A DNA stretch of 10,267 nt from Victivallales bacterium (GTDB taxonomy: Bacteria > Verrucomicrobiota > Lentisphaeria > Oligosphaerales > Oligosphaeraceae), in NCBI GenBank assembly GCA_017431185.1, contig JAFRLP010000049.1, positions 1-10,267 of the forward strand, in the 5' to 3' direction. Made by a program: the position numbers and the translations under genes. This document shows positions 2 to 10,267 of the stretch, piece after piece. How positions within the stretch are numbered: the first letter of the stretch is position 1; the number at the start of each line of letters is the position of its first letter. The notes under the pieces are model-generated. The model saw only the letters and a list, made by a program, of their open reading frames with translations, searched no databases and was not told where the DNA came from.

Positions 2-127
2 ACAGACCACACGCCAGACACAATCGAACTGATTTTTGAAACAATCATCGCCATACCAACGCTAATAATCACCGCATACCTCATTGCGGGCGGAATCAAG
101 GAAGAACTCAGGAGGTATTTCAAATGA
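2..127 (+). CDS. 3' end of a small membrane protein gene (start lies outside the window)
   Basis: The frame beginning at base 2 is open from the left edge to a TGA at 125-127, giving 41 residues. The visible part has a hydrophobic stretch (about IIAIPTLIITAYLIAGG) followed by a charged end, KEELRRYFK. This looks like one transmembrane helix with a positive, probably cytoplasmic, tail. Its stop overlaps the start of the next gene in an ATGA arrangement, which supports a real coding frame with coupled translation. The 5' end is missing, so total length and any further helices are unknown. A phage holin-like or small accessory membrane protein would fit, but nothing identifies a family. Confidence 0.55.
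   Translation, partial: TDHTPDTIELIFETIIAIPTLIITAYLIAGGIKEELRRYFK
110..115 (+). promoter_or_regulatory. Consensus Shine-Dalgarno site for the 124-471 gene
   Basis: AGGAGG lies 8 nt upstream of the ATG at 124 and inside the end of the preceding reading frame (Arg-Arg codons). It fixes the start of the next gene. Confidence 0.8.
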
Positions 128-471
128 ATGAACCCAAATTCACGCCAGGGCCGTGGAGACGGACTATTACAACTGTGCCGAGCGTCTCCGAAGGTTACGA
201 CATTAGTCCAAACATAGTTAACTTGACAATTGGCGACAGGAACATACCGCTTGCAGCGATTGGGATGAACTCGACCGCAGAAACGATGGAGTTTTTTTGG
301 AAGATGGTCGCCAACGCGGCCCTGATAGCCGCCGCGCCCGAGATGTACGAGCTTCTTGACCGCATCAAGGGGATGCTGGAGATGTGCAGACTGGAGAACT
401 CCATAGACGCGGAGGCGGAACACGAGATTGACAGGCTGCTGGCGAAGGCCAGGGGGGAGGTGGAGAAATAA
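124..471 (+). CDS. Small phage protein with TPGPW and AAAPEMYELL motifs, function unknown
   Basis: This 115-residue protein starts at an ATG 8 nt after a consensus AGGAGG and overlaps the upstream stop (ATGA). Residues 7-11 are TPGPW, and residues 64-78 carry NAALIAAAPEMYELL, followed by a charged helical C-terminus. From recall, this pairing of an N-terminal TPGPW with a later AN(A/R)LIAAAPE(L/M) segment is widespread in small uncharacterised proteins of tailed phages, often in early or replication regions. No enzymatic motif, signal peptide or membrane segment is visible. The function is unknown. The family resemblance is from memory and was not checked by a search. Confidence 0.85.
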   Translation: MNEPKFTPGPWRRTITTVPSVSEGYDISPNIVNLTIGDRNIPLAAIGMNSTAETMEFFWKMVANAALIAAAPEMYELLDRIKGMLEMCRLENSIDAEAEHEIDRLLAKARGEVEK

Positions 472-485
472 GCTGCGTTGACGAT

Positions 486-734
486 GTGAAAACTTTGGTT
501 GATGCTGGCTACTCGTGCAATCCCTACTCCGGCGGCTGGACGAAGATAGTGGAAGAGGTGTATCTGAGCATTTTGCGGATTCACGGAGGCGAAGCTAGAA
601 TCTCGCTATGGGAAAAAGGGTTGCAGGTTAAAATGGAGTGGTGCCAGTCCGTAGCCAAGGCGATCGAGGCTGGCGAGGCGTTCCTGGCCGAGAGAACAGC
701 AGAACGCAAGGCCGACAGACCTGCTCCAGACTAG
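486..734 (+). CDS. Hypothetical small protein, GTG start
   Basis: The frame from GTG at 486 to TAG at 732-734 encodes 82 residues. The N-terminal part is enriched in aromatics and glycine (GYSCNPYSGGWTK, residues 8-20). The C-terminal third is alanine- and charge-rich and probably helical. The start is uncertain. The nearest purine-rich site, GGGGAGG, lies about 25 nt upstream, inside the end of the previous gene, which is too far for a good Shine-Dalgarno. The frame is also open further upstream. Size, strand and close spacing (14 nt) fit a cotranscribed accessory phage gene. I do not recognise the family and see no catalytic motif. Confidence 0.55.
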   Translation: MKTLVDAGYSCNPYSGGWTKIVEEVYLSILRIHGGEARISLWEKGLQVKMEWCQSVAKAIEAGEAFLAERTAERKADRPAPD

Positions 735-740
735 TTTTTA

Positions 741-806
741 TGGCGATGGTTGCGGCTCCACCCATTCTCCTCCCTCTTCTCTCTAACGGAGCTGCAACCT
801 TCGCCA
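741..806. repeat. Inverted repeat / hairpin 1 (18 pairs, 28-nt pyrimidine loop)
   Basis: TGGCGA (741-746) pairs with TCGCCA (801-806). After a T-T mismatch (747/800), GGTTGCGGCTCC (748-759) pairs with GGAGCTGCAACC (788-799), with one G-U pair. The 28-nt loop (760-787) is almost entirely C and T and contains CTCCTCCC, which resembles the anti-Shine-Dalgarno end of 16S rRNA. The left arm begins 6 bases after the stop codon of the upstream gene. Confidence 0.85.
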
Positions 807-811
807 CCCTT

Positions 812-896
812 TGGCCGTCGGAGAGCGAAACCCTCTCTTCCTATAATCAACATCGCGGATTAAAACTATAAACGCGACACGCTCCTTCGACGGCCA
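812..896. repeat. Inverted repeat / hairpin 2 (nested stems)
   Basis: TGGCCGTCG (812-820) is a perfect complement of CGACGGCCA (888-896). Inside it, GAGCG (823-827) pairs with CGCTC (880-884), and TCGCG (853-857) pairs with CGCGA (873-877) around an AT-rich 15-nt loop. The 25-nt left side of the inner loop (828-852) carries CCCTCTCTTCC followed by TATAAT. Confidence 0.75.
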
Positions 897-902
897 TCCC
901 CA

Positions 903-978
903 TTGCACGGGATAGCAGCCTTTTTGACAGTTTTTTCCATGCGACAAGCGGTTTCCTCTTGTGTCGTTTCCCGTGCAA
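903..978. repeat. Inverted repeat / hairpin 3
   Basis: TTGCACGGGA (903-912) is a perfect complement of TCCCGTGCAA (969-978). An inner stem can form between CGACA (942-946) and TGTCG (962-966). The terminal loop includes TTTCCT (952-957). The unpaired left side holds two T runs (921-925 and 931-936). Confidence 0.75.
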
Positions 979-1013
979 CTTCTTCACATTCCAAAGGAAA
1001 AACACAACAGCAG

Positions 1014-1205
1014 ATGAAAGAGATAAAAATCATAGTCAAGATAGCCACGGGACCGCCGACGGAGGAACAGAAGCGCCTTGAGAGGCAGGACAGCTATTTC
1101 TTCGGACAGTTCCTAATGGAAGCACTAAACAAAAGGAAAGAAAAACATGACAGCGAAAATCACGGGAATCAGCGTGCAGGACTTCAAGCGGGTGAAGCTG
1201 GTTGA
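1014..1205 (+). CDS. Short hypothetical protein overlapping the ATPase start
   Basis: ATG at 1014 follows an AAAGGAAA tract (993-1000) by 13 nt. The frame runs to TGA at 1203-1205, giving 63 residues. The first 40 residues (starting MKEIKIIVKIATG) look like a short beta strand followed by a charged helix. The last 19 overlap the start of the ATPase gene by 59 bp and are probably little constrained. This frame is also open upstream to about 903, but no ribosome site supports an earlier start there, and the upstream part would run through the hairpin region. No family is recognised. It could be a leader-type ORF coupling translation into the ATPase gene. Confidence 0.45.
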   Translation: MKEIKIIVKIATGPPTEEQKRLERQDSYFFGQFLMEALNKRKEKHDSENHGNQRAGLQAGEAG

Positions 1206-1905
1206 AATCCAGCCGTGCGAAAACGGCCTCACCATCCTGGGGGGCAGGAACGCCCAGGGCAAAAGCAGCGTATTGGACGCGATTGCATACGCATTGGGCG
1301 GCGAGGCTTTCAGGCCAAGCGACATCAACAACCACGATGCGGATGGCAACGCCAGGATAAGGGTTGAAATCGACGGGCTGGTTGTCGAGCGGGCGGGCAA
1401 GAACGGCGCCTTGAAGATCATCGACAGCAGGGGCATGCGGGGAAACCAGACGCTTTTGAACGAAATCGTATCCAGGTTTGCACTGGACCTGGGGACATTC
1501 ATGCAGGCCAACGACACGGAAAAGGCGAAACTGCTCCTGAAGATGTTTCCACAGCTTGAAGGCGCACTTGCGAAGCTGAAGGCGAAGGCGGACGCAATAC
1601 GAGTGCAGCGGGCGGACTGGAACCGCGACAGGAAAAGGATGCAGGCGCAGTTCGACGCAATGCCGAAGGAGGACGCGCCCACCCAGGAAATCAACGTGCT
1701 TGTCATCCAGGACCAGTTGGGCGAGGCAAACGCAGACCGAATGAAAGCCATGAATGAGAAGGTTGAAATCAACAGCCTTGAGAACCAGGCCCTGGCGGAG
1801 GACGACAGGCCACACAGGCGGAGAACAAGGAAAGACAGCTTGACAAGCTGCTTGAGGAGTTCGAGACACAGCAGACGGCGGAACGCCAGAAGCTGCTTGG
1901 CATGA
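1147..1905 (+). CDS. SMC/Rad50-like AAA ATPase, N-terminal part (frameshifted)
   Basis: ATG at 1147 has a clear AGGAAAG site (1134-1140) upstream. The N-terminus is a typical SMC/Rad50-type ATPase head: beta strands around ISVQDFKRVKLVEI, then Walker A GRNAQGKS (residues 33-40), then SSVLDAIAYALGG. From about residue 125 the chain becomes coiled-coil-like. The last ~34 residues (from about 219, arginine- and serine-rich, ending RSCLA) do not resemble the rest. The other frame over the same bases encodes a coiled coil continuing into the next ORF. The simplest reading is one ancestral ~496-residue ATPase broken by a 1-nt deletion (or 2-nt insertion) between about 1782 and 1812. Such proteins act on DNA ends or structures during phage recombination. 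Without the C-terminal half this fragment lacks the signature motif and Walker B. Confidence 0.8.
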   Translation: MTAKITGISVQDFKRVKLVEIQPCENGLTILGGRNAQGKSSVLDAIAYALGGEAFRPSDINNHDADGNARIRVEIDGLVVERAGKNGALKIIDSRGMRGNQTLLNEIVSRFALDLGTFMQANDTEKAKLLLKMFPQLEGALAKLKAKADAIRVQRADWNRDRKRMQAQFDAMPKEDAPTQEINVLVIQDQLGEANADRMKAMNEKVEINSLENQALAEDDRPHRRRTRKDSLTSCLRSSRHSRRRNARSCLA

Positions 1906-2636
1906 TCGCCCTTCTCAACCAGCAGTTGCGGGAATTCGACGAGGCGGCTCCTGGAAAACGCCAGGAAATCAAGACGGCGCGGCTGAAGTCGAAGGCCGAG
2001 GCCGAGGAACACAGGGCGAAGGCGGAAGCGTTGAGAAAGGATGCCGAGGAGCGCAAGACGAGGAACGACGCGAAGCTGGCAACGCTTCAAGGCAGGATAG
2101 AGGAACTGCAAGCCCAGGCAAGGACCGCCACGGAGACCAACGAGAGCGTCAGGCGGAACAAGGCGAGGGAATCACTGTACAATGAGATTCAGGCTTTGGA
2201 CGTGAACATTGCTGGCTACACAAGGAGCCTTGTGGAGATAGAGGCGGCAAGGACGGCGCTCTTGCAGGAGGCGCAGTTGCCATTGCCTGAATTGAGCATC
2301 ACCGAAGACGGAAAACTGCTCTACCGTGGGCAGGAATGGGACTGCATGAGCGGGTCCGAGCGGCTGAAAGTCGCCACGGCTATCTGCATGAAGGCAAAGC
2401 CAAACTGCGGATTCGTCCTTATCGACGGCCTTGAGGCCATGGATCGGGAGACGCTTGAGGAGTTCGGGAAATATCTTGAGAGCCAGCGAATGCACGGGAT
2501 AGGAACCATTGTCGGAGACAACGCCGCCACCGTCATCATCGAGGACGGACGGGTCACGGGGCCAGTGGACGAGCCCACCCTTGAAGAGGAAATCACAAGG
2601 CAGCTTCAAGGCGAAGCTGAAGACAACAACCAATAG
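1902..2636 (+). CDS. SMC/Rad50-like AAA ATPase, C-terminal part (frameshifted)
   Basis: The listed start is ATG 1902, overlapping the stop of the upstream fragment as ATGA, but the same frame is open back to about 1782 and encodes coiled coil there too. Residues 1-125 form a charged coiled coil rich in Glu, Lys, Ala and Arg, without a CxxC zinc hook. Residues 148-161 contain the ABC/SMC signature region (CMSGSERLKVATAI), and residues 169-181 a Walker B-like strand (FVLIDGLEAMD, D175). The end (TIVGDNAATVIIEDGRV) matches the usual last strands of the head. No good Shine-Dalgarno precedes 1902, so expression as a separate chain would depend on reinitiation. Functional ATPase would need both halves to associate, or frameshifting. 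Confidence 0.8.
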   Translation: MIALLNQQLREFDEAAPGKRQEIKTARLKSKAEAEEHRAKAEALRKDAEERKTRNDAKLATLQGRIEELQAQARTATETNESVRRNKARESLYNEIQALDVNIAGYTRSLVEIEAARTALLQEAQLPLPELSITEDGKLLYRGQEWDCMSGSERLKVATAICMKAKPNCGFVLIDGLEAMDRETLEEFGKYLESQRMHGIGTIVGDNAATVIIEDGRVTGPVDEPTLEEEITRQLQGEAEDNNQ

Positions 2637-2653: not shown

Positions 2654-3085
2654 ATGCAGAAGGAACAAAAGACAATTCGATTGCAATGCCATTTCACTGA
2701 AGAGGAACGCAGCATAATCGCCACGGAGATGGTGACGAAGATGCAGGAACTTGGAGAGCTTGACAAGACGCTGAAAAACATGACCTTGAAGCTGAAGGCG
2801 CAGATGGCGCAATGCAACAGGGAGATTGAGAAACGCGCAATCTGGATCAAGGACGGCTACGAATATCGCGAAGTTGAATGCGAGGTCACTTTCAACAGGC
2901 CAGAAAGGGGCAAGAAGGAAATTTTGCGCACGGACACGGGCGAGACGCTTGTTTGGGCAATGACGAACGAAGAAAAAGCGGACCTCTACTACAACGCGGA
3001 CGAGAACGAAGAGGACGAAGACGAAGAGGCCGACGACGAAAAGGAAGAAGACGAAGAGGAAGAGGAGGACGGGGACAATGTTTGA
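2654..3085 (+). CDS. Phage recombination-locus protein with a highly acidic C-terminal tail
   Basis: This is a 143-residue protein. Residues 1-62 appear helical and charged, with a possible short coiled coil at 22-62. Residues 63-112 include IWIKDGYEYREVECEV and RTDTGETLVWAM, which look like a small beta fold. Residues 116-141 are almost all Glu and Asp. I recall similar unnamed proteins with a GYEYREVECEV-like strand and an RTDTGE motif beside phage recombination genes, but I could not check this. It lies between the ATPase and the exonuclease and overlaps the exonuclease gene by 8 bp, so a role as a partner of one of them is plausible. The acidic tail could mimic DNA or contact a basic DNA-binding protein. 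No catalytic motif is evident. Confidence 0.8.
   Translation: MQKEQKTIRLQCHFTEEERSIIATEMVTKMQELGELDKTLKNMTLKLKAQMAQCNREIEKRAIWIKDGYEYREVECEVTFNRPERGKKEILRTDTGETLVWAMTNEEKADLYYNADENEEDEDEEADDEKEEDEEEEEDGDNV
3017..3059 (+). repeat. 13-bp direct repeat in the acidic-tail coding sequence
   Basis: GAAGACGAAGAGG occurs at 3017-3029 and again at 3047-3059, exactly 30 bp (10 codons) apart in the same frame. It encodes repeated Glu-Asp-Glu-Glu. This suggests the tail can expand or contract by slippage or recombination. Confidence 0.8.
3063..3068 (+). promoter_or_regulatory. Shine-Dalgarno of the exonuclease gene, embedded in acidic-tail codons
   Basis: AGGAGG lies 9 nt before ATG 3078 and is formed by Glu-Glu codons of the upstream gene, so the tail sequence also serves as the ribosome site for the nuclease. 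Confidence 0.75.
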
Positions 3086-4692: not shown

Positions 4693-5265
4693 ATGGCACA
4701 ACTAGGACAAATCGACTTCAACGAAGTACATGCAAGCGACGAGCTGCTTCCTGCTGGGGAGTACACGGCAATTATCGTCGCATCGGGGGCAAGGTCCGAG
4801 GACCCGCAGACGAAGGAGGGCTTTGTCATCAGCAAGAGCGGGAAAGGCGCATACCTGCCAATGACATTTGAAATCATCGACGGCGAATTCAAGGGGCGCC
4901 AGGTCAGGAAGAATTTCAACCTCCAGAACGCCAACCAAGACGCTGTGAGGATAGCCAGGCAGGAAATGAAGCAACTCCTTGTCGCCTTGAATTGGGACTT
5001 TGCCAGGAAGCCAGGCGGGCCAGAGGACACGAGCGAGCTTCACATGATACCGCTGGTTGTCAAGATTGCCCAGGTGGAGAACAGGCAGACGGGCGAACTC
5101 CAGAACGAAATCAAGAAGTTCATCATGCAGGGCGGAGGCACGGCGCACATCGCGCAGCCCGTGGCGGCGCCCATCGGAACGGCGCCGATGGCGAAACCGT
5201 GGGAGAGAAAGCCAGCCGTCGTATCACCACCGCAGCTTGCATCCACGGAGGCGCCCAAGGAATGA
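4693..5265 (+). CDS. DUF669 protein, probable single-stranded DNA-binding protein
   Basis: This 190-residue protein carries the DUF669 pattern: LPAGEYTAIIV (19-29), YLPMTFEIIDGEFKGRQVRKNFNLQNAN (54-81) and the following helix DAVRIARQEMKQLL (83-96), then a final strand region LVVKIAQVENR (121-131). In phages, DUF669 proteins lie beside Sak4-type ATPases and are regarded as OB-fold-like SSB substitutes. The C-terminal 40 residues (about 150-190) are rich in Pro, Ala and Gly and end acidic (APKE), which recalls the flexible tails of SSBs that recruit partners. A GGAGA site precedes ATG 4693 by about 8 nt. The stop overlaps the next start (ATGA), so it is probably translationally coupled to the resolvase. 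Confidence 0.85.
   Translation: MAQLGQIDFNEVHASDELLPAGEYTAIIVASGARSEDPQTKEGFVISKSGKGAYLPMTFEIIDGEFKGRQVRKNFNLQNANQDAVRIARQEMKQLLVALNWDFARKPGGPEDTSELHMIPLVVKIAQVENRQTGELQNEIKKFIMQGGGTAHIAQPVAAPIGTAPMAKPWERKPAVVSPPQLASTEAPKE
5171..5191. repeat. Short inverted repeat in the DUF669 linker
   Basis: CCATCGG (5171-5177) and CCGATGG (5185-5191) flank a 7-nt loop within the Ala/Pro-rich linker codons. It could form a small mRNA hairpin. No T-tract follows, so it is not a terminator. Confidence 0.5.
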
Positions 5266-5675
5266 ACGGCGAAGCCATAGAGCTTGAAATGCCAATGGCT
5301 GTATCGGAGAACAAATACCGCAGGATTGTTCCAGGATGCAGCCACCCCGTCATTTCAAGCGAAGGGCGAAAGTACCATGAGACCGCGAAGGCGATTTTTC
5401 GGCAGAGCGGCCAGGTGCCAATAAAGGGGCGGGTGAAAGTCGAAGTCGAGTTTTACCCGCCCGACTGGAGGAGGCGCGACCTGGACAACCTTTTCAAGTG
5501 CCTTTTCGACAGCCTTGTCAACGCGGGGGCCATCGAGGACGACCACTTGATAACAGAAATACACGCTTTCAAGCGGGACCCAGTGCCAAACGGCCTGCTT
5601 TTTGTACGGATCACGAAATACGAAGATGATAGAGCTGAGATACTACCAGACGGCGGCGGTCAACGCCGTATATGA
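5262..5675 (+). CDS. rusA: RusA-family Holliday junction resolvase
   Basis: The frame from ATG 5262 gives 137 residues, close to the usual 120-140 of RusA. Residues 70-95 contain the family hallmark: RRRDLDNLFK with D73, D75, N76 and K79, then FDSLVNAGAIEDDHLI with D93/D94. These correspond to the metal-binding aspartates and the lysine needed for cleavage. RusA dimers cut four-way junctions symmetrically, which would resolve recombination or replication intermediates. The ATG overlaps the DUF669 stop (ATGA) and has GGAGG at 5247-5251, 10 nt upstream. The frame is open further 5' to 4992, but that part is only the off-frame reading of DUF669. The last 17 residues overlap the helicase start and are poorly RusA-like, so they are probably dispensable. 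Confidence 0.92.
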   Translation: MNGEAIELEMPMAVSENKYRRIVPGCSHPVISSEGRKYHETAKAIFRQSGQVPIKGRVKVEVEFYPPDWRRRDLDNLFKCLFDSLVNAGAIEDDHLITEIHAFKRDPVPNGLLFVRITKYEDDRAEILPDGGGQRRI

Positions 5676-7377
5676 CTTTCTGAGGCGCAAGCCCGACTTG
5701 AACCCATGCGTCGTATTGCCGACGGGCGCGGGAAAGTCGCTTGTCATCGCCAAGATCGTCAGCGACGCCGTAACGCTCTGGGAGGGGCGTGTGCTCATAC
5801 TGGCGCACGTCAAGGAGCTGCTGGAGCAGAACGCGGCGAAGATCCAGGCGCTTTGCCCAGGGCTTGAAATCGGCGTCTATTCGGCGGGGCTGAACAGACG
5901 CGACACTGGCAACAGGGTTGTTGTGGCGGGCATCCAGAGCGTCCACAGCAAGGCCGCCGACCTGGGGAGCTTCGACCTGATACTGGTTGACGAAGCGCAC
6001 CTGATACCGCCAGACGGAGACGGCATGTACCAGACTTTCCTCAACGACGCCAGGGCGGTAAACGACAACGTGCGCTTGATCGGCCTGACGGCGACCCCGT
6101 ACAGGCTGAGGGGCGGGCTTATCTGCAAGCCCGATAACCTGCTGAATGAAATCTGCTACGAAGTCGGCGTAAAGGAGCTGATATACCGTGGGTATCTGTC
6201 GAAGCTGGTATCAAAGAACGGGCAGTTCAGGGCCGACCTTGAAGGGCTCCACGTGAAGGCTGGCGAATTCGTGGCGGAGGAAGTGGCGGAGAGGATGGAC
6301 AACGCCAGCCTGGTTGAAAACGCGGAATGGGAACTCCTGAAGCTCACGAAGGCGAGGAGGACGGTCCTGATTTTCGCCAGTTCAGTGGCCCACGCCCAGC
6401 ATGTCAAAAAGGCGATAGAGGAAAAGGGGCAGATTGAATGCGGGATAGTAGTCGGCAACACGCCAAAGGCGGAGCGGGACCAGACATTGGACCGATTCAA
6501 GGACATCCCCGTTCAGGCCGACTTGTTTGAGAACATGATGGAGCCCTTGAAGTACCTGGTAAACGTCGGGGTGCTGACGACGGGTTTCGACGCACCGCAG
6601 ATAGACTGCGTTGTCCTTCTGCGACCGACCGCCAGCGCAGGCCTCTACTACCAGATGGTAGGACGGGGCTTCAGGCTGTCTCCAGGGAAGACGGACTGCA
6701 TGATACTGGACTACGGGCAGAACATCATGCGCCACGGGCCAGTTGACATGATACAGGTTTCGGAAGGCAGGGGCGGGAAAGGCGGAACGCCGCCGATGCG
6801 CGAATGTCCGCAGTGCCATTCTGTTTTTCCCGCAGGGCGGATAACCTGCCCTGACTGCGGGTTTGAAATGCCAAGGCCAGAAAGGGACCTCCATCACGGG
6901 GTCCGGGCGGCCAGCGACGGCATACTTTCAGACCAGGCAAACGAGACGGAATACGAGGTGAGGCGCGTCAGATACGCCAAGCACTACAAGAAGGGCGCGA
7001 ACAACGGCACGCCGCCGACCTTGCGCGTCGAGTACCAGATAGGATTCAATGACTTTGTTTCTGAATGGGTATGCATTGAGCACACGGGGTATGCGGGACG
7101 CAAGGCCGAAGCATGGTGGGGGGCGAGGACGGACGGGCACGATCTGCCTTTTTCCGTTGACGAGGCAATCTGGCTTGCGGAAAACGGCTACATCAAGGAG
7201 CCGTCGAGGATAAAGGTGAGGAAGACGCCTGGGGACAAGTGGCCTAGGATCATCGACGCGACGCTTGAGGAGCCACGGAACAAAGAGGACTACGACATTG
7301 CGGAGGAATGGTATGCGACGCAGATGGACGCGACGCCGTTTGACGATGCGTCCAATGATTCGGAGATTCCATTTTGA
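5626..7377 (+). CDS. Superfamily 2 DEAH-box helicase with C-terminal zinc ribbon
   Basis: I place the start at ATG 5626 (583 residues), because an upstream TTG (5602) adds only eight residues outside the fold. MIELRYYQTAAVNAV is a typical Q-motif-type beginning. Motifs follow: LPTGAGKS (31-38, Walker A), ILAHVKELLEQ (58-68, Ia), VDEAHL (121-126, DEAH), LTATPYR (154-160, III), LTTGFDAP (317-324, V) and YYQMVGRGFR (341-350, VI). This is the SSL2/COG1061 type of ATP-driven translocase common in phage replication modules. Next comes a four-cysteine zinc ribbon, C394-x2-C397 and C408-x2-C411, then about 170 residues without a recognised fold, ending in an acidic segment, DDASNDSEIPF. It overlaps rusA by 50 bp and lacks a strong Shine-Dalgarno, which suggests coupled translation. 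It probably unwinds origins, forks or branched DNA. Confidence 0.92.
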   Translation: MIELRYYQTAAVNAVYDFLRRKPDLNPCVVLPTGAGKSLVIAKIVSDAVTLWEGRVLILAHVKELLEQNAAKIQALCPGLEIGVYSAGLNRRDTGNRVVVAGIQSVHSKAADLGSFDLILVDEAHLIPPDGDGMYQTFLNDARAVNDNVRLIGLTATPYRLRGGLICKPDNLLNEICYEVGVKELIYRGYLSKLVSKNGQFRADLEGLHVKAGEFVAEEVAERMDNASLVENAEWELLKLTKARRTVLIFASSVAHAQHVKKAIEEKGQIECGIVVGNTPKAERDQTLDRFKDIPVQADLFENMMEPLKYLVNVGVLTTGFDAPQIDCVVLLRPTASAGLYYQMVGRGFRLSPGKTDCMILDYGQNIMRHGPVDMIQVSEGRGGKGGTPPMRECPQCHSVFPAGRITCPDCGFEMPRPERDLHHGVRAASDGILSDQANETEYEVRRVRYAKHYKKGANNGTPPTLRVEYQIGFNDFVSEWVCIEHTGYAGRKAEAWWGARTDGHDLPFSVDEAIWLAENGYIKEPSRIKVRKTPGDKWPRIIDATLEEPRNKEDYDIAEEWYATQMDATPFDDASNDSEIPF

Positions 7378-7400
7378 CAATACAAGGAGAGCAAAAAAAA

Positions 7401-7796
7401 ATGGCAAGGAAAAACGAGACAAATGGAAATGCAAAGGAAGGGGGGACAAGGCGGAACGCCTATCTGGAGCTGATAAGACTGGGGATAGAGGCGGGAATCA
7501 TCGTCGATTCAGGTCTTGAGGCAGACACGAAGGCCATCACGAAGACCCTTTACGCGATATTGGCCAAGGAGAAGAACGGCGAGGAAAGCATAAATCTTCA
7601 GGACTTCTGCCGTGTCTTCATCGGCGTTCAGAGCGGATACCTGGAGGAGAGTGACTGGCTTAATTCATACGAAATGGGCTTTCTTGCGGGCGTCCTGACA
7701 AAAGGTGAATGGGAGTTCATAGAAGACGGGGAAATACCGTGGGATTTGTGGGATAAGGTCTGGAAGCGGGGCGAAGAGGAGAAAAGGCAATGCTAG
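7401..7796 (+). CDS. Hypothetical protein between helicase and primase
   Basis: The 131-residue frame starts at ATG 7401, 10 nt after AAGGAGA (7384-7390). An upstream in-frame TTG at 7374 is less likely because it sits before that ribosome site. The first 18 residues are basic and low-complexity (MARKNETNGNAKEGGTRR). The rest looks mostly helical, with NAYLELIRLGIEAGIIVD (19-36) and a tryptophan-rich acidic end (WEFIEDGEIPWDLWDKVWKR). No catalytic or metal motif is visible. It ends in a 7-bp overlap with the primase-helicase, so it is probably made alongside it. A loader or accessory role for the helicase or primase is only a guess from position. A run of nine A's (7393-7401) immediately at the start could allow slippage. 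Confidence 0.75.
   Translation: MARKNETNGNAKEGGTRRNAYLELIRLGIEAGIIVDSGLEADTKAITKTLYAILAKEKNGEESINLQDFCRVFIGVQSGYLEESDWLNSYEMGFLAGVLTKGEWEFIEDGEIPWDLWDKVWKRGEEEKRQC
7777..7781 (+). promoter_or_regulatory. Shine-Dalgarno of the primase-helicase gene
   Basis: AGGAG lies 8 nt before ATG 7790 inside the C-terminal Glu codons of the preceding gene, which supports this start for the long open frame. Confidence 0.7.
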
Positions 7797-10267
7797 TTTT
7801 CGACCAGCGTCACGCGACGGAGGCATTGCAGGCCGTTTTCAGGCCTGGAGACGTTTTTGAAATACGGGCACTAGACGCAACGACTATAGGATATAGCCGA
7901 CCGCACACGGTAAGCGGCTATTTTGACTATAGTCATATTGCAATGGCTATTGGCACGATAGCAAAACAACTTACATCGGCGCGCGGGATATACTACACGC
8001 CTAACCCCGTTTCACAGGCACTATTGGCCAGGGCCGCGAACAGGCTAAGGGACATGGGGGCGCGGGAACCGTCAACGGCGGACAAGGACATATTGAAACG
8101 GCGATGGTTGCTTATCGACTGCGATGCAGTCAGGCCGAGCGGTATATCATCCAGCGACGAGGAACACGCCGCAGCACGTGAAAAGGCGGATGAAATCCGC
8201 GACGGACTGGCGTCGATGGGATTTCCAGAGCCGATAGAGATAGACAGCGGCAACGGGGCGCAGCTCATGTATAGCGTCGATTTGCCAGGCGACGACGGCG
8301 GTATCTGTGAGAAGATATTAGCAAAATTGCAGTCATGCAACACTTCCCAGGTTGACATCGACAGGAGCGTCTTCAACCCAAGCCGAATCTGGCGGTTGCC
8401 TGGCAGCATGAACTGCAAGGGCGACAGCATACCAGAAAGACCACACAGACAGGCGCGAATTCTAGCAATGCCAGCGGAATTGAGGCAGGTGCCGTTGGAG
8501 CTGCTGAAGCAACTGGCGGGCATCGAGGAGCCCAGGCCAGCCGATTTGACGGAATACCAGGACAGGCCGAAGGGCACGGGCGCAAAGCTGGGAGGCATCG
8601 ACTTTACGGAAATCGGCGACGGTCCAGAGGAGGCCTTCGACCTGGATGAATGGATAGCGCGGCATTGCCCCGACGCCCAGGGGCCAGAGGAATGGAACGG
8701 CGGGCGAAAATGGGTGTTTCCAGTCTGTCCATTCAACCCTGACCATGCCAACAGGTCAGCGGTCATCACCGAGCAGGCAAACGGGGCGATTGGCTTCACA
8801 TGCCACCATAACAGTTGCCAGGGGAACGACTGGAAAAAGCTGAGGAAACTGCTGGATCCAGACTACAGGGAGCGGCAGATGATACGGGAAGGCGGGGTGG
8901 CAACGCCCGTCCAGGCAGTCAGTTGCCAGCCGATGGAGGCGCAGGTTGCGGAAAACAGGGCAATGCCCGTCCTGGGGGACGTTGACGATGGCGTTTGCGA
9001 GGAACAGCCAGACACCGACGAAGAGGCTGATGAAGAGCCGAAACCCTGGCGCGAGGTCACGGACGATGACATAAAGACGGCGCTTGACGGGACGCTTTTG
9101 GGCGAGATGGCGGACCTTTACGCAAGCGTGACGAAACCGAGGCTGCCATTGCAGGCGGCTTTGCTGAAGGCCATTGTAACCGCTGGATGCGCCTTGAGCG
9201 GGCCAGGGGCGCCCGACAGCGGAAGAAAATCCATCTTGCCACCGATTGGGGCATTGAGGGCAAGGCTTCGGATCGACACGGCTGGCGGGCAAGTCTGCAA
9301 CGTCTATGGGCTGCTTGCGGCGAACAGCGCGAGCGGGAAGGACATCGGCAACCTGCTTGACACGATAGCCAACGCGAAGCAATGGAGCCTGGGAACGGCT
9401 GGAAGCGCGGAGGGCATAGCGGAGGCGTTGAAGAACATGCCAAACGGCCTTGTCAGCATATCCGAGTTCAAGCCCTGGCTTGACGAGAAGCACTGGCAGT
9501 CGAAGGCCACCTCATTCCTGACGGAGGCATTCAGCAAGAGATTCTTCAGGCACAACTTTTCAAGCCGTGGCGGAAAGGGAGGCAGGAGCGAATGCGACTT
9601 CTGCTATCCAAACATAATCGCGAGCATACAGCCAGGCGTATTCGAGGAAGTCGCCAGGATGCAGGACATTTTCAGCGGATTCATGGGCCGTTTCATATTG
9701 GCCAGGATGCCGAAGTTCCTGGGAGATCCCGCGAAGGTTGACATTGGGGGCATACTGGGGCGGTTCGGGGAGCTGCTACAGGTGTTCGAGAGAAAGAAAG
9801 GGATTGTCGAGGTTCCAGAGGACTACGGCGCCGAGTTGTCGGAGATGTTCAGGAAGTATTCGCCAGAGAAGATGGACCCGTCCTGGCGCCGTCTTGTCAA
9901 CGAGTACATGCCAAGATTCGCCGTGATGCTGTCCATGGGCTACGATGTGCGCACCCAGGGCGAGGCGGTCATTTTGCGGGACAAGGACTGGGATGGCGCA
10001 AGAAAGATGGTGCAGTGGTTTTTCACGCAGGCGGAGGACCTTTTATCGGCAGTGGAAGACGATACGATACAAGCGAGAAACCAGGAAAAGCTAATCAGGC
10101 GGTTTGTAAGGTTTGTTGCTAATGCCAAAGACAAGGCGGGGGTTACAATGCAATATTTGTCTAGAAATGCAAATCATACAGTTACGACCGCCGAGCAACG
10201 CTATAACATCATCCTGGACTGCATAGCAAGGGGAATGGTGAAGGCTGTTGTTGGCAATAAGAAAGTC
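7790..10267 (+). CDS. Primase-helicase: AEP-type primase, zinc motif and DUF3987-like P-loop domain (3' end outside window)
   Basis: The frame from ATG 7790 is open for 826 codons to the right edge. Residues 1-240 look like an archaeo-eukaryotic primase/primpol domain: WLLIDCDAVRPSGISSSDEE (106-125, with D110 and D112 as probable metal ligands), IDSGNGAQLMYSVDLP (151-166) and DIDRSVFNPSRIWRLPGS (189-206). Residues 313-343 hold a likely zinc site (C313, H319, C338, C343), followed by WKKLRKLL. An acidic linker (397-418) leads to a DUF3987-like helicase region with a diverged P-loop, ANSASGKD (511-518), and a Walker B-like LVSISEF (554-560). The P-loop lacks its first Gly and has Asp in place of Ser/Thr. 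The fused layout suits a replicative primase-helicase that primes and opens phage DNA. It overlaps the upstream gene by 7 bp. The C-terminus is unseen. Confidence 0.88.
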   Translation, partial: MLVFDQRHATEALQAVFRPGDVFEIRALDATTIGYSRPHTVSGYFDYSHIAMAIGTIAKQLTSARGIYYTPNPVSQALLARAANRLRDMGAREPSTADKDILKRRWLLIDCDAVRPSGISSSDEEHAAAREKADEIRDGLASMGFPEPIEIDSGNGAQLMYSVDLPGDDGGICEKILAKLQSCNTSQVDIDRSVFNPSRIWRLPGSMNCKGDSIPERPHRQARILAMPAELRQVPLELLKQLAGIEEPRPADLTEYQDRPKGTGAKLGGIDFTEIGDGPEEAFDLDEWIARHCPDAQGPEEWNGGRKWVFPVCPFNPDHANRSAVITEQANGAIGFTCHHNSCQGNDWKKLRKLLDPDYRERQMIREGGVATPVQAVSCQPMEAQVAENRAMPVLGDVDDGVCEEQPDTDEEADEEPKPWREVTDDDIKTALDGTLLGEMADLYASVTKPRLPLQAALLKAIVTAGCALSGPGAPDSGRKSILPPIGALRARLRIDTAGGQVCNVYGLLAANSASGKDIGNLLDTIANAKQWSLGTAGSAEGIAEALKNMPNGLVSISEFKPWLDEKHWQSKATSFLTEAFSKRFFRHNFSSRGGKGGRSECDFCYPNIIASIQPGVFEEVARMQDIFSGFMGRFILARMPKFLGDPAKVDIGGILGRFGELLQVFERKKGIVEVPEDYGAELSEMFRKYSPEKMDPSWRRLVNEYMPRFAVMLSMGYDVRTQGEAVILRDKDWDGARKMVQWFFTQAEDLLSAVEDDTIQARNQEKLIRRFVRFVANAKDKAGVTMQYLSRNANHTVTTAEQRYNIILDCIARGMVKAVVGNKKV
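7882..7935. repeat. Cluster of palindromes inside the primase 5' coding region
   Basis: ATAGCCG (7893-7899) and CGGCTAT (7915-7921) form a perfect 7-bp inverted repeat with a 15-nt spacer. Four bases later, TGACTATAGTCA (7924-7935) is a perfect 12-bp palindrome. GACTATAG also occurs at 7882-7889, a direct copy of the 7925-7932 half. Codons here are locally AT-richer than in flanking genes. Confidence 0.7.

Follow-up and report, generated by a model that had tools for sequence, protein, structure and literature searches.

Three adjacent hairpins fill the only long non-coding gap of a phage early operon and may act as a local control segment

Background

Why would an operon with hardly any space between its genes keep almost 300 nucleotides of DNA that encode no protein, and why should this DNA be occupied by three large hairpins? 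The question is raised by a stretch of 10,267 nucleotides (hereafter the window), which belongs to a phage group that we met almost exclusively as metagenome contigs. An earlier note on this DNA had proposed an undescribed regulatory RNA, a leader of the recombination operon or a structured replication origin. Here we analyze the gap by gene prediction, folding statistics and comparison with related loci, and weigh the functions that it could have.

Results and discussion

The gap is the only long non-coding segment of the operon

A simple codon-usage gene call predicted 14 ORFs in the window, every one of them on the + strand (Table 1). It left one intergenic gap longer than 120 nt, which spans exactly positions 735-1013 (279 nt) and agrees with the earlier description of this stretch as the only non-coding segment kept by the operon; the remaining operon gaps are all shorter than 30 nt. 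Coding content within the gap was rejected on codon scores, since the top ORF inside it scores 1.2 against a threshold of 4. The first ORF of the window looks to us like a small membrane protein of the kind found in the related loci L001 and L113, and we take the large protein encoded from position 7790 to be a primase-helicase. In L001 and L113, the operon seems to us to start from a divergent promoter region; small ORFs come next, one of them membrane-protein-like, and the gene for the Rad50/SbcC-like ATPase lies behind them. On the basis of this layout, we placed the gap early in the operon, between the first small genes and the ATPase. In the window the ATPase gene is frameshifted at about 1795-1905, while the frame is unbroken in L001 (whose intact protein matches phrog_1499), L003 and L113; the frameshift may be a sequencing error or a real break.

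Table 1. Features of the window, with the gap and its flanking genes
Feature	Position	Strand	Details
5'-cut ORF	2-127	+	
phrog_1273 gene	124-471	+	
Gene upstream of the gap	486-734	+	82 aa, without family match
C-over-G stretch	697-1053	+	357 nt, C/G at least 1.3 in 78-nt windows; candidate Rho-utilisation region
Hairpin 1	741-806	+	19-nt arms 741-759/788-806, 89% complementary; 28-nt loop
Hairpin 2	812-896	+	12-nt arms, 92% complementary, basal 9 perfect
Hairpin 3	903-978	+	Perfect 10-nt arms 903-912/969-978; weak inner stem in fold
Small gene downstream of the gap	1014-1205	+	63 aa; start 35 nt past hairpin 3
Rad50/SbcC-like ATPase, N-terminal part	1147-1905	+	AAA_23; gene frameshifted
Rad50/SbcC-like ATPase, C-terminal part	1902-2636	+	
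ORF	2654-3085	+	
DUF3799 exonuclease-like gene (exo)		+	First after 2654-3085
AAA_24/Sak4-like gene		+	Second after 2654-3085
DUF669 SSB-like gene		+	Third after 2654-3085
RusA gene (rusA)	5262-5675	+	PF05866, E 8.5e-15
ResIII/DEAD helicase gene		+	After rusA
ORF	7374-7796	+	
Large protein gene, primase-like	from 7790	+	DUF3987 match at E 0.022, below cut-off

The hairpins are more stable than expected by chance

The three adjacent inverted repeats lie where they had been reported, separated by linkers of 5 nt (hairpins 1-2) and 6 nt (hairpins 2-3). In the + strand fold, hairpin 1 forms the 18 pairs that had been counted before, including one G-U pair and interrupted by a T-T mismatch, and hairpin 2 forms 16 pairs and an inner 5-pair hairpin. 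Overall, 141 of the 279 gap positions are mostly unpaired and 123 are mostly paired. The arms of the three hairpins are not repeated, and the stems have no unit in common. The loop of hairpin 1 contains no G and is 86% pyrimidine; G-free loops were rejected as a signature of design, as 208 out of 400 shuffles of the same composition are equally low in G.

The folding energy of the gap is -89.6 kcal/mol on the + strand, compared to a mean of -60.7 kcal/mol for 1,000 dinucleotide shuffles, none of which is as stable (z -6.39). When the hairpins are folded alone on the + strand, hairpin 1 (z -8.36) and hairpin 2 (z -5.51) are also more stable than all of 1,000 shuffles, and hairpin 3 is marginal (z -2.19, with 27 out of 1,000 as stable). 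The folding check proposed in the earlier note is therefore passed by the whole gap and by hairpins 1 and 2, which provide the folding signal, and only weakly by hairpin 3. The original observation of a structured gap is right and goes beyond chance.

Among 72 sliding windows on the + strand, 701-980 (z -4.3) ranks third after two windows that overlap rusA (z -7.5 and -5.5). When 70-nt stretches of the + strand are ordered by their stability for the G+C content, hairpin 1 is second, between 7875-7944 and a stretch in rusA. With its 18 pairs and its position between cistrons, such a stem could be cut by RNase III or could block exonucleases, so that the small early genes and the genes for the ATPase and recombination would end up on separate mRNAs. 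We regard processing as an unlikely function, as hairpin stability is unspecific and we found no homologues in which the stems are kept.

Compared to relatives, the folding of the gap is notable but not extreme. In a set of 7,372 strand-windows, which covers the window and 53 loci but leaves out L008 and L049-L080, 721-960 scores z -2.85 on the - strand and -2.73 on the + strand, and 62 strand-windows, some of them from near-identical loci, score below -2.85. When the comparison is made among 33 of the 38 predicted gaps longer than 120 nt in the window and its relatives (246 strand-windows, 25 shuffles each), the gap of the window has the lowest z (-4.95), followed by a repeat array in L117 (-4.82); because the gaps of the relatives were called solely from the window's codon usage, some of them are coding.

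Folding modestly favours the + strand

The reported flip from purine to pyrimidine on the + strand is clearly visible in the GC skew, which falls to -0.28 at 701-900 and -0.24 at 801-1000 and is below -0.1 in no other 200-nt window. On either side of the gap the skew is positive. The C-over-G stretch that encloses the gap is the longest of 10 such stretches on the + strand, the next one being 1-123 (123 nt, with a higher C/G), and its C bias is the reverse of the bias of the genes.

This composition also means that the - strand of the gap has the purine bias typical of coding strands, and it may suggest an RNA that is transcribed from the - strand, has GGA-rich loops and is of the antisense or protein-sponge type. 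The - strand has a folding energy of -97.6 kcal/mol and is more stable than most shuffles (z -3.10, with 3 out of 1,000 as stable). However, this excess is smaller than that of the + strand, and neither the gap nor its surroundings contain a flagged promoter-like site on the - strand. Two G-U pairs of the + fold would become C-A on the - strand, although two positions are too few for this asymmetry to decide the strand. We consider a - strand RNA very unlikely, and the comparison of energies with shuffles modestly favours the + strand.

The gap matches no Rfam family and shows no specific sign of a replication origin

The statement that the gap matches no described RNA family holds against the 4,227 families of Rfam: none reached its gathering threshold, the best match (E 3.4) being far below it, and a search of 650-1150 at E up to 10 returned two matches, both at chance level. 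Neither strand of the gap contains a flagged sigma-70-like promoter, and none of the 13 sites in the window that resemble intrinsic terminators (a G+C-rich stem followed by a T run) falls within 735-1013. Matches resembling boxA are not enriched in the window (41 compared to 70.8 expected); two of them, with 2 mismatches each, are inside the gap. The search for iteron-type repeats in 700-1160 returned just direct repeats of 9-18 nt, in two imperfect copies.

These repeats bear on the proposal that the gap acts at the DNA level, as a replication origin or a cruciform site beside the recombination genes. The neighbourhood would suit such an element, with genes for an SbcC-like ATPase, a DUF3799 exonuclease, Sak4-like and SSB-like proteins, RusA and a helicase. 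Yet the gap has no iterons, the GC skew is positive on both sides of it, and the segment is absent in three relatives (see below). The structured origin of the earlier note thus received no specific support, and of all functions considered a DNA-level element appears to us the least credible.

In distant relatives, structured stretches were flagged 0.6-1.2 kb upstream of exo in about eleven loci. They were dropped as instances of the same element after reading L013, L010, L006, L037 and L117. The stretch of L010 is a terminator-like hairpin. Those of L117 (7031-7190), L013 (9065-9227), L037 (8933-9051) and L006 (1965-2120, by eye) are non-coding arrays upstream of recombination genes, in which a single short unit recurs in either orientation and which look like operators or iterons. 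The arrays of L117, L013 and L037 are like the gap in being non-coding, structured and upstream of recombination genes in the same phage group, but the three stems of the gap, unlike these arrays, are not built from a common unit.

The gap is absent from the relatives that can be compared

To collect relatives, viral contigs were scanned with the exonuclease, keeping the best 80 of 377 confirmed loci, and a second scan yielded 10 loci, three of them already in the set. Genome contigs contributed 3 loci, and an ATPase-based scan yielded 4. The exonuclease relatives include proteins of Anaerohalosphaera lusitana (46% identity), of a Planctomycetota MAG (44%), of two further Planctomycetota MAGs (40-43%) and of a Clostridiales MAG (31%), which are too distant to name a host; the relatives P0002 and P0003 are closer, at 80-81%.

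The same ATPase with its upstream region is available in three distinct records (L001/L106, L107/L113 and L003). In L001, L003 and L113, the ATPase gene is overlapped by its upstream neighbour or follows it after about 15 nt at most, and both the gap and the stems are absent. Two further loci (L108 and L109) have a more distant ATPase that is truncated where the contig or locus begins, and are uninformative on the gap. Homologous phages without stems, which the earlier note had named as evidence against its proposal, were therefore found in part, namely in the three relatives that can be read upstream of the ATPase. Their lack of the gap argues against a leader or an origin common to the whole group, but not against a lineage-specific element.

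In searches for the gap itself, no DNA relatives were found in phage records or in plasmid records. When 691-1160 was compared to 119 loci, only short matches were detected, the best of 27 nt in L097, a locus that had been collected for holding the arm pattern of hairpin 1. Out of 15 virus records, 3 had matches of at most 23 nt and none contained a relative of the gap; in a sample of 392 Planctomycetota genomes from a larger group, matches of 29-48 nt were present in 6, none within 741-978. The arm pattern of hairpin 1 occurs in 25 stretches of viral contigs, and the partner arm in none of them (best 13 out of 18 positions), while the arms of hairpin 3 with a free loop have no match in these contigs. 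Covariance models built from the single sequences of hairpins 1 and 2 were searched against the window and 90 of 137 loci. Besides the window, the model of hairpin 2 had one match (E 0.78), and that of hairpin 1 matched L007 (E 0.012), L024 (E 0.09) and five loci at E 2.2-4.2. The match in L007 (3571-3657, - strand) is a hairpin that resembles the arms of hairpin 1; it was taken as a chance likeness, because it lies on the opposite strand of a 266-aa ORF and differs in its interior.

The genes next to the gap give hints of mosaicism. A protein search with the product of the upstream gene returned four matches, including that of the window itself. The overall identity to P0124 is 45%, yet the last 21 residues, encoded at 669-734, are identical, while the C-terminal ends of P0122 (73%) and P0123 (60%) differ. 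From these alignments, the region just upstream of the gap looks like a mosaic or recombination boundary, and the contig of P0124 may carry the gap as well. When viral contigs were searched with a degenerate pattern for a portion of this tail, nothing was found, and a search of viral contigs with the upstream-gene alignment gave 21 pattern matches, with no relative among them. With the frame that runs through hairpin 3 into the downstream gene as query, one relative was found (P0125), which covers the gene only (63 aa, 98%).

The absence of the gap in L001, L003 and L113, the lack of DNA relatives in all records, loci and genomes searched and the identical tail in the otherwise dissimilar P0124, as expected at a mosaic boundary, would fit a functionless, lineage-specific insert or mosaic join, with repeats produced by template switching or brought in with the recombination module. 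The rusA genes of the group also hold hairpins at shifting positions, so that stems of this type occur elsewhere in these phages. On the other hand, all other gaps of the operon are short, as described above, and three neighbouring stems that differ in sequence are not expected from a single duplication. A functionless insert seems improbable to us, about as much as a processing site; if it were the correct explanation, the gap would show how strong folding statistics can mislead when homologues are lacking. A further reading would be an undescribed structured phage RNA, in the form of a lineage-specific cassette of three hairpins that moved between phages on a recombination module with the tail of the upstream gene and controls the early operon. 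We give this somewhat less credit than the functionless insert.

A cis-acting transcription gate is the tentative best explanation

The gap shows no coding signal, is structured beyond shuffles, has more C than G on the + strand and lies between two gene groups; any role is inferred from these features. Judging from the folding statistics, it is plausible that the gap is a local regulatory segment of the phage mRNA. The regulatory RNA of the earlier note thus stands as far as a structured, untranslated segment without Rfam match is concerned, and falls short in that the segment is missing in the three readable relatives.

According to the literature, Rho sites are untranslated, C-rich and G-poor (PMC4496710), and can be searched for as 78-nt windows with C/G > 1 and C residues every 11-13 nt (PMC6407284). 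The early operon of lambdoid phages has a segment in which the rut site of tR1 overlaps with the hairpin site nutR (PMC3526286). We chose a transcription gate acting in cis because nutR/tR1 is the closest mechanism that fits the place and the composition of the gap. The gap shares with nutR/tR1 the lack of translation, the richness in C and paucity of G, the presence of hairpins and a place early in a co-directional phage operon.

By analogy with nutR/tR1, the gap would be an untranslated spacer within a polycistronic mRNA transcribed from the + strand of the early operon. Its stems would set apart C-rich, G-poor single-stranded tracts, where Rho may meet RNA free of ribosomes. Read-through from the first small early genes to the genes for the ATPase, recombination and replication could then be decided by the occupancy of the hairpins, perhaps by an antitermination factor of the phage or of the host. 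The gate is consistent with the same-strand genes on both sides of the gap and with the absence of flagged promoters and intrinsic terminators inside it. Moreover, windows at 757-775 follow the rut rule, with C/G of 2.15-2.54 and 7 regularly spaced C residues, although the rule is loose (174 out of 3,397 windows on the + strand pass) and the highest C/G on the + strand (3.25, at 7-84) is inside an ORF.

Several observations speak against the gate. Rho sites are described as unstructured (PMC6407284, PMC4496710), and the gap is highly structured. Two features of nutR/tR1 are lacking, namely an unstructured rut RNA and a boxA near the hairpin. In addition, the G-poor loops are at the level set by composition, and three relatives with the ATPase do not have the segment.

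The comparison with known systems adds further differences. The boxB hairpin of lambda is small, and the stems of the gap are long; the analogy also has to do without a known antiterminator. The put RNA of HK022 may be another parallel, as it consists of tandem hairpins in an early phage transcript and acts in cis, as the gap would. The put sites are shorter than the hairpins of the gap and come as two related copies. On balance, we hold the cis-acting gate as a possible explanation, adopted tentatively and with well under even confidence. If the gap is a true gate, either of transcription or of processing, it would give this phage group a first control signal for its early operon.

The pyrimidine-rich loops could instead act by pairing. 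In small RNAs with UCCC loops, such as LhrC of Listeria, C/U-rich loops pair with Shine-Dalgarno sites, and the stem-loops of the gap similarly expose C/U-rich tracts. A trans-acting or leader RNA of this type would be supported by the predicted pairing of the hairpin 1 loop with the start region of exo (-29.6 kcal/mol, p 0.035) and of 828-852 with the start of orf124 (-13.2 kcal/mol, 0 out of 200 shuffles). Overall, p is at most 0.05 in 11 of 60 loop-gene pairs (5 loops of at least 12 nt and 12 genes), compared to 3 expected, but the 60 tests are not independent, and the mononucleotide shuffles used as control break pyrimidine runs, with any of which purine-rich start sites would pair. The loops of the gap, unlike those of the UCCC type, have no common repeated motif, and neither a promoter nor a terminator was flagged for a separate RNA. 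Such a pairing RNA is in our opinion decidedly unlikely, slightly more so than the mobile cassette.

Hairpins are in excess also in rusA

Independently of the gap, this phage group has more hairpins in its rusA genes than codon constraint explains, an observation that may matter more than the gap itself. Compared to permutations of synonymous codons, the rusA gene of the window has a z of -4.2 and contains a palindrome at 5427-5462. In the central 300 nt of rusA from 32 loci with distinct proteins, some of which are closely related to each other and hence not independent, the mean z is -2.78 and 75% are below -2. In the same test, exo, AAA_24, SSB and helicase (capped at n = 32 each) and primase (n = 21) have means from -0.64 to -1.11. 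In an earlier run on 30 of 53 loci, all 30 rusA genes were negative and 21 were below -2, compared to a mean z of -0.2 for nine control stretches of the window.

The best 60-nt hairpin of rusA is found at different places in eight sequences, with the exception of L002 and L113. RNAalifold returned no consensus structure for 51 rusA sequences, and a weak one for seven or eight close sequences. The signal extends in weaker form to 26 distant RusA-like ORFs, obtained by a family search that hit 21 of 149 Planctomycetota genomes: their mean z is -1.36 and 35% are below -2, compared to -0.26 and 10% for 49 control ORFs of the same loci, with the reservation that some of the RusA-like ORFs are long, so that the middle 300 nt tested may fall outside RusA. 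In a literature search on this point, an excess of rusA hairpins appeared in no title or abstract opening among the matches listed.

A further structured site is the nested hairpin at 7875-7944, near the start of the primase-like gene, which ranks first among 70-nt stretches of the + strand in stability relative to G+C content. In 19 relatives, the first 240 nt of this gene have a mean z of -1.63, compared to -0.65 to -0.99 for three other genes.
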